This document shows positions 7,091-12,566 of a DNA stretch of 64,000 bases, piece after piece. The DNA is from Candidatus Thermokryptus mobilis (GTDB lineage: Bacteria; Bacteroidota; Ignavibacteria; Kryptoniales; Kryptoniaceae). The translations under genes and the position numbers were made by a program. Position 1 is the first letter of the stretch. The number at the start of each line of letters is the position of its first letter. The notes under the pieces were generated by a model. That model saw nothing but the letters and a program-made list of their open reading frames with translations. It was not told the origin of the DNA and made no database searches. Location: contig NZ_FAOO01000005.1 in the NCBI RefSeq assembly GCF_900070205.1, positions 66,512 through 130,511 on the forward strand, read 5' to 3'.

Positions 7091-7415
7091 TCATTCACTG
7101 ATAATCTCCCTAACCAAAACCCCATCACAGTTGTAAACTCTAATCATTAAAGGTATCCCCGATTGAAGCGAATGAGTAGCACAAGCATGACACGGATCAT
7201 ACGCTCTAAATGCCATTTCAATCATATTTAAAATTCCATCATCAACCTGACCGCCCTTTATCTTATTCCTTGCCACCTTATCAACGGATAGGACAATTCT
7301 CGCTGAATTATTTTGAGTTGCAACTATTAAGTTAGCACTTTTGATCAATCCTCTTTCATCAGTTTGGTAATGGTGAATAAGAGTTCCACGCGGTGCCTCA
7401 ACCTGCCCTATACCT
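7091..7415 (-). pseudogene. Remnant: C-terminal end of a [NiFe]-hydrogenase large subunit
   Basis: About 105 C-terminal residues of a hydrogenase alpha subunit of the Mvh/F420-non-reducing or bidirectional (group 3) class. Seen are GQVEAPRGTLIHHYQTDERG and the C-terminal nickel motif DPCHACATHSL (DPCxxCxxH). The N-terminal nickel-binding motif and at least 300 residues are missing. Upstream the frame runs into HdrA coding sequence, out of frame, at about 7411-7419, so this is the 3' side of a deletion joint. With only half of the Ni-Fe ligands it cannot be an active enzyme. It shows that an ancestor carried an Hdr-linked hydrogenase. Confidence 0.85.
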
Positions 7416-7832
7416 TGGCGCCAGTCCTTTCTTTGATCAAGTGAGCAAGCTTGAGCGAATATAAACAACAAACGCGTGAACAATACCAATTATAATTTTA
7501 TCCCTTGAGCCAACGCAATGAATAATACCGACAGATTTTGGTTTGCGAGCGTCGCGAAGCAAAATTTCACCACCTGTTGGACCGGCAGAATTTGTCATCC
7601 TTTCAATTTCAAGAGATGTGAAAACATTGGGATATTTTCCATAACCATACCTCGGTATACGACGCGGATCAAAAGTTTTAAAACCTGTAGCTAAAATAAT
7701 TGCACCAACAATTACTTCTTCAATTTCATCTTTCATTGAATAATCAATTGCTTTCGCTTCGCAAACGGTTGCACATAAACGGCAATCACAACAAATTGCG
7801 CAATTCAAACATCTTTGTGCCTCCTTTTTTCC
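7411..7832 (-). pseudogene. Remnant: internal fragment of heterodisulfide reductase subunit A (HdrA)
   Basis: Fragment of the FAD/Fe-S flavoprotein HdrA, which normally has about 650 residues. It begins inside a conserved cysteine cluster (EAQRCLNCAICCDCRLCATVC), continues through GAIILATGFKTFDPRRIPRYGY and IIHCVGSRDK, then shifts frame. After losing one A in the A-run at about 7497-7501 the frame resumes as YCSRVCCLYSLKLAHLIKER and TGAKV, the usual HdrA continuation, and stops at the joint with the hydrogenase tail. Both ends of the gene are gone; a stop codon lies just upstream at about 7836-7838. It is therefore doubly broken: one frameshift and one large deletion. Confidence 0.85.
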
Positions 7833-10097: not shown

Positions 10098-10931
10098 TCA
10101 AGTGCTTAAAAGTTTAATTTCAACTTTTTTAGGGATTAATCCCTTTTCATATCCAATATCAAGAAACAACTGAATTGCTTTTTTCCCCACCTCTCCACAG
10201 TCAAGCGTCAGCTCGTTAACATACATTCCCACAAATTTATCAGCCAGTTTTTCATCCATACCTCGGGCAAATTTAAGAGCGTATCTAAGTGCTTCATCTC
10301 TATTTTCCATCGCATATCTTACGCTTTCCTTCAAAAGATTTGAAATCTTCCTCGCAAGTTCAATGCCAAGTTCTTTCTTAACGACATTTCCTCCAAGAGG
10401 CAAAGGTAAACCTGTTTCCCTCTGCCACCAATTTCCGAAATCAATGATTTTCTTAAGCCCGGAATCTGAATAAGTCAATTGTCCCTCGTGAATTAAAAGA
10501 CCAGCATCAACTTCATCGTTAAGCACAGCTTCAATTATTTTGTCAAATTGAATGACCTTGTATTTGACCTCTGGCTCAAAAATCTTCAAAATTAAAAATG
10601 CGCTTGTCAATGTCCCCGGGACGCCAACTAAAAAATTCTTCAAGTCCCTCGGCTCAAACTCCTTCTTTGACACCAAAATCGGTCCATAACCCAAACCCAT
10701 ACTTGATCCGCTCGGAAGGAGAACATACCTATCAGAAACATAGGCATAAGCATGAAAAGATATCGCTGTGACATCATAAACACCTTCAAATGCCTTACGA
10801 TTTAGCGTTTCAATATCACTTAAAACATTGACAAATTTCAAACCATCGGACTTTACTTTACCATTTACAAGTGCATAAAACATAAAAGCATCATCTGAAT
10901 CAGGGCTATGTGCAATTGTTATCTCTCTCAT
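10098..10931 (-). CDS. MqnA/MqnD-family protein (menaquinone futalosine pathway or related)
   Basis: 277-residue protein of the MqnA/MqnD/periplasmic-binding fold, without a signal peptide, so cytoplasmic. The N-terminus ITIAHSPDSDDAFMFYALVN corresponds to the substrate pocket of 1,4-dihydroxy-6-naphthoate synthase (MqnD), and DVTAISFHAYAYV, SGSSMGLGYGPILVSKK and DAGLLIHEGQLTY follow in the order of that family. If it is MqnD it makes dihydroxynaphthoate from cyclic dehypoxanthinyl futalosine. The DSDDAF variant of the usual CPNDTF motif fits a paralogous group found widely in Bacteroidota relatives, so the reaction is uncertain. I chose the ATG at 10931; an in-frame GTG lies 9 bases upstream. 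Confidence 0.75.
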   Translation of the reverse strand: MREITIAHSPDSDDAFMFYALVNGKVKSDGLKFVNVLSDIETLNRKAFEGVYDVTAISFHAYAYVSDRYVLLPSGSSMGLGYGPILVSKKEFEPRDLKNFLVGVPGTLTSAFLILKIFEPEVKYKVIQFDKIIEAVLNDEVDAGLLIHEGQLTYSDSGLKKIIDFGNWWQRETGLPLPLGGNVVKKELGIELARKISNLLKESVRYAMENRDEALRYALKFARGMDEKLADKFVGMYVNELTLDCGEVGKKAIQLFLDIGYEKGLIPKKVEIKLLST

Positions 10932-10953
10932 TTTGATCACAATTTGTTTTGGA

Positions 10954-11616
10954 TTAAAGCTTTACGGATGGACATAATTTATTTATCTTACAAATTGAAC
11001 ATTTCGGTTTCCTCGCTTCACAGATATATCTTCCGTGCTCACCTATCAGATGAGAGAAAAGCGTCCATTTATCTTTCGGGACGATTTCCATAAGCTCAAA
11101 TTCAATTTTATCCGGATTTTTACTTTTAACTAAACCAAGCCTTGCGGTCACTCTTTTTAGATGCGTATCAACTATTATACCTTGTTTTCCGAACGCATTT
11201 GCAAGAACAGCATTGGCTGTCTTTCTTCCAACTCCAGGGAGTTTGACGAGTTCTTCAAGCGTGTCAGGAACTTGACCATTGTATTTCTCAACGAGAACTC
11301 TACAGCAATTTTTTATCGCCTTTGCTTTATTCCTATAAAATCCCGTTGGCTTAACTTCCTGTTCAAGTGTTTTAAGATCAGCATTTGCGTAATCGTCCGC
11401 AGTGCGATACTTCTTGAAAAGATATTCCGTGACTTTGTTAACCCTTTCATCTGTGCATTGCGCAGCAAGGATCGTCGCAACGAGAAGCTCAAGGGGATTT
11501 GTAAAATTTAAATGTGTCCTAGCATTTGGATAAAGTTTCCTCAATGTTTGAATTATCTTCCTCACCCTCTTCTTTTTGTCTTGCAATGTTTCCCTCGCAA
11601 AAACCTTCTTCGCCAT
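10954..11616 (-). CDS. nth: Endonuclease III
   Basis: Base-excision repair glycosylase/AP lyase for oxidised pyrimidines, 220 residues from the chosen ATG. The helix-hairpin-helix LPGVGRKTA is at residues 126-134 with catalytic Lys132, and catalytic Asp150 is in VDTHLKR. The [4Fe-4S] loop cysteines are C199, C206, C209 and C215 (CEARKPKCSICKINKLC), so the cluster is intact. The open frame extends 45 bases further upstream into the ferredoxin gene, but MAKKVFARE is the natural start and leaves a 16-base gap. About 20 basic residues precede the core domain. Confidence 0.95.
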   Translation of the reverse strand: MAKKVFARETLQDKKKRVRKIIQTLRKLYPNARTHLNFTNPLELLVATILAAQCTDERVNKVTEYLFKKYRTADDYANADLKTLEQEVKPTGFYRNKAKAIKNCCRVLVEKYNGQVPDTLEELVKLPGVGRKTANAVLANAFGKQGIIVDTHLKRVTARLGLVKSKNPDKIEFELMEIVPKDKWTLFSHLIGEHGRYICEARKPKCSICKINKLCPSVKL

Positions 11617-11632
11617 CTTTACATTTGAAATT

Positions 11633-11998
11633 TTATTTTTGAATCGGTTCAATTTTAGCACTTTGCATTAAATCGGGGTTAAATTTTTCATCTTTTATCA
11701 TGAGTTCATCAACCACCTCTCCGTTTATAATATGGGAACTTATAATTTTCTCAATATCCTCCTCCTTAACTCCGCCATACCAAATTCCTTCTGGATAAAT
11801 CACGATGCTTATACCATGTTCACATGCGTCAAGACAACCGGATGAATTCACACGGACTATTTTATTTAAGCCAAGTTCACTTATTCTTTTTTTAAATTTG
11901 GCAACGAGTTCCTCCGAACCTTTCTGAGCACATGAACCTCTTGGATGCTCCGGGGGACGACGATTTGTGCAGATGAAGATATGTTTTTTAAAACGCAT
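11633..11998 (-). CDS. Thioredoxin-like [2Fe-2S] ferredoxin
   Basis: Small cytoplasmic Fe-S protein of the thioredoxin-like ferredoxin family (NuoE C-domain relatives), 121 residues. Cluster ligands are C10 (FICTNRR), C23 (RGSCAQKG), C55 and C59 (SSGCLDACEHG), the spacing expected for this family. The GISIVIYPEGIWYGGVKEED segment after the cluster is also typical. A C-terminal tail of about 25 residues (from VDELMIKD) is not part of the fold. It is the third gene of a cluster beginning with a plant-type ferredoxin and a ubiquitin-like protein. Its redox partner is unknown. Confidence 0.9.
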   Translation of the reverse strand: MRFKKHIFICTNRRPPEHPRGSCAQKGSEELVAKFKKRISELGLNKIVRVNSSGCLDACEHGISIVIYPEGIWYGGVKEEDIEKIISSHIINGEVVDELMIKDEKFNPDLMQSAKIEPIQK

Positions 11999-12023: not shown

Positions 12024-12278
12024 TTAAAATTTCTTCAGGTTTATCAACAGCAAGACATCACCAGATTTAGTGCCCTTGCTTAAAAGTGTTTCATTATTTT
12101 CATACTCAAATTTTTGAGTTAAATTGAAAAGGACGAAATTTAAAGCATCCTCCTGCTCACCATAAATTTCACGAACGAACTTTTTTATCAATTCCCCGAT
12201 GTTTGACTCATCATCAACTTCATACCTGAAAATTTCTCCACTAAAACCTTTTCCGACAGCAAGCGTTATCTTTGTCAT
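12024..12278 (-). CDS. Small ubiquitin-like (beta-grasp) protein, no cysteines
   Basis: 84-residue acidic protein that I do not recognise as a named family. The pattern is of a beta-grasp domain: TKITLAVGK strand, FRYEVDDE strand, a helix IGELIKKFVREIYGE, then LNFVLFNL and a final TKSGDVLLLINLK. The last segment matches the LxxGDxLxLx strand common in ubiquitin-like and EsaB/YukD proteins. There is no C-terminal GG, so it is not an obvious conjugation tag, and no cysteine, so no Fe-S cluster. Its stop-to-start spacing is zero bases from the upstream ferredoxin gene and 25 bases from the next ferredoxin, so it is certainly in that operon. Function unknown; a partner or scaffold for the ferredoxins is a guess. 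Confidence 0.7.
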   Translation of the reverse strand: MTKITLAVGKGFSGEIFRYEVDDESNIGELIKKFVREIYGEQEDALNFVLFNLTQKFEYENNETLLSKGTKSGDVLLLINLKKF

Positions 12279-12566
12279 TTACCAGTATGAGGTTGTTATT
12301 TTAATGTCCCCATAAACTTTAACAGCGCACGCAAGTCGTTCGTCAATGTCAAACTTATATCTGTGCATAATTTTTTCTTCCTCTTGACTTGGTGCTGACA
12401 ACGATTCAATACCTTCAATAACTTTCACCCGACAATGCCCACAAATTTTATCTCCACCGCATGACTCAGCTATAGGTATAGAATTTTTCTTTGCGACATC
12501 AAAAATAGTTGAACCACTTTCACATTTAACCTCTACTCCAAGTGGAACAAAATAAACAAAAGGCAT
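12279..12566 (-). CDS. Plant-type [2Fe-2S] ferredoxin
   Basis: 95-residue soluble electron carrier. Cluster ligands are C36, C42, C45 and C80 in CGGDKICGHC and LACAV, the adrenodoxin/plant ferredoxin arrangement with the wider CxxxxxCxxC spacing of bacterial Fdx. The N-terminus is VEVKCESGSTIFDVAKKNSIPI. The open frame continues 57 bases upstream, but a Bacteroidota-type promoter lies in that stretch, so the ATG at 12566 is the start. It heads an operon with the ubiquitin-like gene and the thioredoxin-like ferredoxin. Confidence 0.92.
   Translation of the reverse strand: MPFVYFVPLGVEVKCESGSTIFDVAKKNSIPIAESCGGDKICGHCRVKVIEGIESLSAPSQEEEKIMHRYKFDIDERLACAVKVYGDIKITTSYW

Follow-up and report, generated by a model that had tools for sequence, protein, structure and literature searches.

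The window analysed here, a stretch of 64,000 nucleotides, carries on its minus strand a run of genes in which a small predicted ubiquitin-fold protein (Ubl) lies between two ferredoxins. In the direction of reading, the features are as follows.

12279-12566, minus strand: Fer2, an ISC/adrenodoxin-like [2Fe-2S] ferredoxin of 95 aa with the C-terminus ITTSYW (Pfam Fer2, 3.7e-11)
12024-12278, minus strand: Ubl, predicted ubiquitin-fold protein of 84 aa, no cysteine and no GG
11633-11998, minus strand: TrxFd, a thioredoxin-like [2Fe-2S] ferredoxin of 121 aa (NCBIfam NF041612, 8.3e-27, below the cut-off; alignment A3)
10954-11616, minus strand: Nth, endonuclease III (Pfam HhH-GPD, 5.3e-28), with C-terminal cysteines of the [4Fe-4S] type
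10098-10940, minus strand: MqnA-like menaquinone biosynthesis gene, after Nth and in the same direction (Pfam VitK2_biosynth, 2.1e-77)

The translated Ubl reading frame ends in GDVLLLINLKKF and has neither a terminal GG nor a cysteine. This agrees with an earlier note on this DNA, which had described an 84-residue cysteine-free product without GG at 12024-12278; the strand is minus. The note's further observation, that no base separates Ubl from a ferredoxin gene, was confirmed by the coordinates: the stop codon of Fer2, whose gene ends at 12279, directly adjoins the Ubl ATG. The Ubl stop lies 25 nt from the start of TrxFd at 11998, and the thioredoxin-like ferredoxin noted there is present. 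The first ATG of Nth (11616) follows 16 nt past the TrxFd stop, and the mechanical ORF extends to 11661. Relatives are labelled by family, with f1 for the window's genus (the heat-loving Kryptonium lineage), f2 for its sister family and f5 for a more distant family; f1 and f2 together are called the order. Across six loci of the genus, the Fer2-Ubl junction ranged, with the choice of start codon, from about -4 to +1 nt, with a 4-nt overlap in L025 and L027 (counting from the first of two Met codons) and a 1-nt gap in L026, L028 and L029. An MqnA-like gene followed Nth in 5/6 f1 loci, the window included; of the 13 f2 loci read, 8 showed the same.

The neighbouring products were assigned by profile. 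Fer2 is a [2Fe-2S] ferredoxin as the earlier note had stated, but it is nearer to the ISC/adrenodoxin type than to the plant type, matching NCBIfam fdx_isc at 2.5e-14 (below its cut-off) versus 0.012 for the plant type, and its PDB relatives were 9i2a and 1i7h. All 15 rows of the Fer2 alignment A2 share four cysteines and a C-terminal YW; this invariant Tyr-Trp end is possibly a docking tail. The TrxFd profile A3 matched PDB entry 1f37 at 9.6e-33. For Nth, the Pfam EndIII_4Fe-2S match was sub-cut-off (0.02), and Cys214, 221, 224 and 230 were invariant in all eight alignment rows. Elsewhere in the window, at 7091-7808, two short ORFs resembled by eye a heterodisulfide-reductase-like fragment and the C-terminal end of the large subunit of a NiFe-hydrogenase; these are possibly remnants. 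The Fer2 proteins of 14 relatives without Ubl end in YW in 13 cases and in YWGHE in one.

Fold, family and distribution of Ubl

The AlphaFold2 model of Ubl alone had a mean pLDDT of 94.7 and a pTM of 0.84. Its predicted beta-beta-alpha-beta-beta order is that of a ubiquitin-like beta-grasp, so the fold proposed in the earlier note was borne out by structure prediction. Aligned to ubiquitin variants with VIA-align, the model gave a Z of 13.5 and an rmsd of 1.5 A over 78 residues. Among the first matches in both Foldseek and VIA-align were ubiquitin variants, ISG15 and SUMO, and VIA Z ran from 13.5 to 12.6 (rmsd 1.2-2.4) among the 50 matches listed. Foldseek also matched, at rank 3, a bacterial Ubl-deubiquitinase complex (8tyx) and, at rank 41, a ubiquitin-like protein from Bacteroides fragilis (8hm2). 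When the Ubl family profile (A6) was compared with PDB sequences, the best match was polyubiquitin at an E of 0.01, summed over its repeats.

Pfam, NCBIfam and PADLOC returned no credible family match for Ubl or its relatives. With hmmscan, the Pfam profiles YukD, RnfH and TmoB gave no match at E <= 1 in Ubl or 17 family members, and assignment to EsaB/YukD, RnfH or TmoB by profile was rejected. The window Ubl itself matched none of the ubiquitin-like Pfam families at E <= 1. The EsaB/YukD likeness suggested earlier, taken as family membership, found no sequence support. Several stray matches were taken as chance, namely DWNN, a ubiquitin-like domain (0.042 in 1/17 members), LysM3_NFP (2/17 members, best 0.063) and glycerol kinase (0.0068 in 1/33). 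A ZnuA match (E 0.059) was equally stray, and no metal-binding family matched credibly. A role as a defence-system protein was also dismissed, as PADLOC gave only a stray MTase match (E 0.0087, 1/33).

We followed the family through several genome sets. Matches at E <= 1 occurred in 20 of 41 genomes (its own and 40 relatives); in 13 of these the match reached E <= 3e-7 and contained no stop. The Ubl profile matched 38 of 391 genomes of the class at E <= 0.01; three weak matches inside large ORFs were dropped, and the remaining 35 Ubl genomes fall in nine families (f1, f2, f5, f8, f23, f59, f60, f61 and f62). Six of the seven f1 genomes, the window's own included, have a homologue; the seventh, G006, is 71% complete and is also without a strong match to either neighbouring ferredoxin. 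A phylum-wide sample contained Ubl in 8/296 genomes, every one inside the same class, the query being a single f8 protein that is less sensitive than the profile. A first scan of the contig collection with a single Ubl protein as query gave no match. In the GTDB 220 contig collection, 20 loci found by a pattern scan were confirmed, under the titles Kryptonium, Kapaibacterium, Ignavibacteria, Bacteroidetes, Chlorobiota or 'bacterium'; the scan rested on one short pattern that distant members elsewhere could escape. As far as searched, the family is uncharacterised and confined to one Bacteroidota class. The titles and abstract openings of the papers listed in literature searches contained no description of the Ubl family or of the TrxFd-Nth linkage reported below, and in the one listed paper with both 'Kryptonia' and 'ubiquitin-like' the excerpt concerns E1 domains.

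Ubl is under purifying selection. Within the genus (six members), dN/dS was 0.06-0.23 in the 12 of 15 pairs that allowed its computation, which is a rough measure as the synonymous sites are almost saturated (mean pS 0.67). These values, together with the homologues across genomes, rule out a chance ORF.

Linkage with the ferredoxins and endonuclease III

Gene order was compared using cut-offs of E <= 1e-12 for Fer2 and E <= 1e-20 for TrxFd. In every genome with both genes (14/14), Ubl precedes TrxFd within 500 nt. Fer2 lies upstream of Ubl within 1.7 kb in 15/16 genomes and 8.5 kb upstream in the remaining one. The order Fer2-Ubl-TrxFd was seen in 6/7 f1 and 4/13 f2 genomes. Three of the five f5 genomes have the order Fer2-c1-Ubl-TrxFd, c1 being a lipoprotein-like protein described below; of the other two, one gave no match for TrxFd, and in the other Fer2 is 8.5 kb off.

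Of the 38 genomes with both ferredoxins, 33 have them no more than 500 nt apart. An adjoining pair without Ubl was found in 23 genomes (9 of the 13 f2 genomes and 14 of f13), and at these cut-offs 19/35 Ubl genomes are without either type of ferredoxin. In addition, TrxFd (132 genomes) and Ubl (35) overlap in 14 of 391 genomes, near a chance expectation of ~12 (132 x 35 / 391). The many Ubl genomes without ferredoxins and the near-chance overlap indicate that the link of Ubl with the ferredoxins is one of position, bound to certain lineages, rather than a general dependency. The earlier note had linked its proposal to the three genes being neighbours in other genomes, and this held for Ubl and TrxFd wherever both occur, but not for the Ubl genomes without ferredoxins or the pairs without Ubl. 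The same two observations, together with c1 as a candidate partner of its own, weaken the idea of a simple three-part redox complex of Fer2, Ubl and TrxFd.

We also searched the gaps between the ferredoxins in the nine Ubl-less f2 genomes and one f13 genome, and found no convincing Ubl remnant; in L112 the TrxFd end of the gap was placed by hand from the TrxFd match. The best candidate was a stretch of 12 identical nt (E 0.008) in L118. On a tree of Fer2 and TrxFd from 23 genomes, among them all but one of the nine Ubl-less f2 genomes, four changes in Ubl presence were needed, two of them forced by well-supported branches. The tree is compatible with several losses of Ubl and is not proof of them.

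The link between TrxFd and endonuclease III is broader. An Nth match was found in 128/132 TrxFd genomes, and 81 of the 128 have Nth no more than 500 nt downstream of TrxFd, with overlapping genes in some; several families with this arrangement have no Ubl. By family, the counts were 6/6 in f1, 24/24 in f10, 32/34 in f19, 4/4 in f21, 11/17 in f13 and 4/13 in f2. There were none in f5 (4 genomes), f17 (4), f11 (9), f3 (7), f7 (4) and f15 (2). Thirteen cases were near-misses, comprising 12 gaps of 0.9-1.7 kb, all four f17 genomes among them, and one 62-nt overlap. PolX occurs within 300 nt upstream of Fer2 in 17/40 genomes and at ~0.6 kb in 8 more (f13); in 7/23 it precedes Ubl by no more than 2.5 kb. 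In the six f1 genomes with the Ubl locus, PolX is on a separate contig. The PolX match of the window's own genome (G000, contig C4, 66241-67952) falls into two pieces that overlap and lie in different frames; five congeners have a single open frame. G000 may carry a split gene, a frameshifted gene or an assembly error.

To our knowledge, the cellular redox partner of endonuclease III is not settled. The recurrent linkage with Nth makes TrxFd a testable candidate electron donor for this enzyme. One could read the operon as a DNA-repair redox module, in which Ubl belongs to a ferredoxin system that would maintain the [4Fe-4S] cluster of endonuclease III or tune it. The TrxFd-Nth order in f10 and f19 and the proximity of PolX to Fer2 speak for it. 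So do two statements in the literature: in E. coli, the electron-transfer genes rsxABCDGE share one operon with nth (PMC2907692), and the affinity of EndoIII for DNA is influenced by the redox state of its cluster (PMC11840932). We nevertheless consider this reading clearly unlikely. TrxFd sits away from Nth in f5, f3, f11, f7 and f15, 19 Ubl genomes have no ferredoxins, PolX is on another contig in this genus, and adjacency of genes is no demonstration of electron transfer.

Conserved residues, cysteines and candidate partners

We defined the family by its core motifs, not by cysteines. In the 33 rows of alignment A6, G14, N52, Y59 and D74 are invariant, the window's lineage included, and G11, S13, I16, R18, T54, E58 and T70 are conserved at >= 90%. 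The most conserved positions lie in KGFSGxIxR (the beta1-beta2 hairpin), in the segment NLTxxFEY, and at T70 and D74; both core motifs are present in the window Ubl. By rough numbering, the conserved segments would lie beside the Ile44 face of ubiquitin, and the conserved residues may reflect the fold as much as binding.

The cysteines follow a different pattern. Outside the order there are 25 Ubl genomes, of which all but G478 and G553 were read; these 23 all have one cysteine at the end of beta1 and another at the C-terminus, with the tail CHK in 17/23. Of four f2 proteins, two keep both cysteines, one the tail cysteine only and one neither, and none of six f1 members has either. Cysteine-free, the term used in the earlier note, therefore fits this Ubl and f1 but not the family. 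From the sequences, we infer that the cysteine-free state was probably derived in this lineage by loss. With no cysteine, a direct thiol or Fe-S role of the window Ubl is unlikely.

The relatives outside the order could be metal- or thiol-binding Ubls, with the beta1 cysteine and the Cys-His tail as ligands that were lost in the Kryptonium form. The cysteine pair and the frequent CHK tail agree with this proposal, as do His-rich acidic extensions that continue the Ubl frame at the N-terminus in two f5 genomes (L034, 5968-6222; L096, 2991-3254) and at the C-terminus in L098 of f60 (7489-7599). Against it, the model of a cysteine-bearing relative (mean pLDDT 87.7) has a poorly ordered tail, with a mean of 48 at residues 81-85, and no metal-binding family matched credibly. 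We regard this function as improbable for the relatives, and it does not apply to the window Ubl.

The tail also bears on whether Ubl is a sulphur carrier or a protein modifier of the ThiS/MoaD/ubiquitin kind. The ubiquitin fold would suit such a role. Many relatives have DGG before the tail cysteine, for which trimming is conceivable, and the genome encodes an E1-like ThiF and a JAB peptidase. But the window Ubl (ending INLKKF) and the six aligned genus members have no GG end, and the second G of DGG is not conserved among the relatives. The over-cut-off ThiF and JAB genes sit with another Ubl, ending AGGI, on contig C3. Among the ORFs near the window Ubl, seven of which were scanned with Pfam, no E1 or JAB partner was recognised. 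The absence of GG and the presence of a ThiF/JAB pair with its own Ubl make a carrier or modifier role highly improbable. In the C3 cluster (G000, ~150326-152733), a cysteine-synthase-like enzyme (by eye), the JAB peptidase, the AGGI-ending Ubl and the ThiF-like protein adjoin; this is probably a separate sulphur-carrier system.

Outside the order, Ubl coexists with c1. The c1 protein is 330-430 aa long and lipoprotein-like, with an N-terminus that is lipobox-like by eye (examples are L098, 5918-6970; L100, 7381-8469; and L034, 4811-5965). It had no curated family match, giving only a sub-threshold TolB_N match in 1/10 members (E 0.075) and a TolB chain at E 0.22. The search covered the Ubl genomes outside f1/f2 and 20 f1/f2 genomes; c1 was present in 25/25 of the former and in 0/20 of the latter (10 with Ubl and 10 without). 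It adjoins Ubl upstream in 15/15 genomes of f5, f23, f60, f61 and f62, and it is on another contig in 10/10 genomes of f8 and f59.

These data make c1 a candidate envelope partner of the Ubl family. It is possible, if rather unlikely, that c1 is the real partner, that the ferredoxin linkage is inherited gene order, and that the Kryptonium Ubl is a leftover with a secondary role. Besides the presence and position of c1, this possibility draws on the lineages without c1, in which the cysteines and CHK-type tail are absent or eroded and Ubl is missing from 9/13 f2 genomes. These features occur together, and the contrast is essentially one lineage split, with presence of c1 known from the Ubl genomes and f1/f2. 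Furthermore, the lipobox-like start would place c1 outside the cytoplasm, whereas Ubl has no signal peptide by eye, and purifying selection on the Kryptonium Ubl speaks against a passive leftover.

A possible role for Ubl and its closest known systems

No terminal GG is known from EsaB/YukD, which shares the ubiquitin fold with Ubl; the Pfam match is missing, and no ESX/T7SS genes were recognised in the ORFs near Ubl. Ubiquitin provides the best fold matches, but Ubl is without GG, its sequence similarity is weak, and no conjugation genes were recognised nearby. More pertinent are two stand-alone proteins described in excerpts of PMC1779556. RnfH is a stand-alone Ubl sometimes co-encoded with Fe-S electron-transfer genes in rnf operons. 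TmoB is a small stand-alone Ubl that accompanies the Rieske [2Fe-2S] protein TmoC, binds the catalytic subunit and has no effect on enzyme activity in vitro. Excerpts of PMC1949818 call both functionally obscure. Our Ubl resembles RnfH in standing alone near Fe-S electron-transfer genes; it differs from this proteobacterial protein in having soluble ferredoxins rather than the rnf membrane complex as neighbours, and no rnf or smpB genes were recognised among the neighbouring ORFs. It resembles TmoB in lying alongside a [2Fe-2S] protein gene, but no hydroxylase or monooxygenase genes were recognised among the ORFs near the window Ubl. The E. coli operon rsxABCDGE-nth likewise joins electron-transfer genes with endonuclease III, but through the Rsx complex (the SoxR reducing system) rather than two small ferredoxins and a Ubl. 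We place Ubl as a new unnamed family among the stand-alone bacterial Ubls beside Fe-S genes.

Given that Ubl has kept the fold and the conserved face in a lineage without c1, the cysteines or the tail, and that its gene is co-encoded with Fer2 and TrxFd, we favour a non-covalent adaptor. The data are compatible with a scaffold or adaptor role. The mechanism we infer from anatomy and synteny is as follows. Ubl would dock non-covalently through the KGFSGxIxR hairpin and the NLTxxFEY segment onto a partner, which in this lineage would most likely be a co-encoded ferredoxin or the Fe-S enzyme that the ferredoxins serve. It may thereby help to assemble or position a short electron-delivery chain. 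The Kryptonium lineage would have lost the cysteine pair and c1 and retained the conserved face.

We hold this picture of a non-conjugated, stand-alone adaptor, by analogy with RnfH, in a ferredoxin/endonuclease III operon only tentatively. The confident fold model, the near-zero Fer2 spacing in six genus loci, the constant position of Ubl relative to TrxFd (14/14) and Fer2 (15/16), the core residues, kept in this lineage where cysteines and tail are not, and the dN/dS of 0.06-0.23 in 12 of 15 pairs all argue for it. RnfH, TmoB/TmoC and rsxABCDGE-nth provide the precedents. It is opposed by the 19/35 Ubl genomes with neither ferredoxin type, by the persistence of the pair without Ubl in f2 and f13, by the TrxFd/Ubl overlap near chance and by f5, where Nth is not beside TrxFd in any of the 4 genomes with both. 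The lack of a TmoB effect in vitro also counts against it.

A bolder proposal combines these elements. Ubl would organise the two [2Fe-2S] ferredoxins so that they deliver electrons to the [4Fe-4S] cluster of Nth or rebuild it, as a soluble, convergent counterpart of rsx-nth plus RnfH, and the relatives would add a redox- or metal-active cysteine pair and an envelope partner. This is a long shot; if true, a Ubl-ferredoxin-Nth system would link the cellular redox state to base-excision repair. Whichever role applies, Ubl adds a bacterial ubiquitin-fold family that was unrecognised by the libraries searched, one lineage of which is without the cysteine pair and tail of its relatives.
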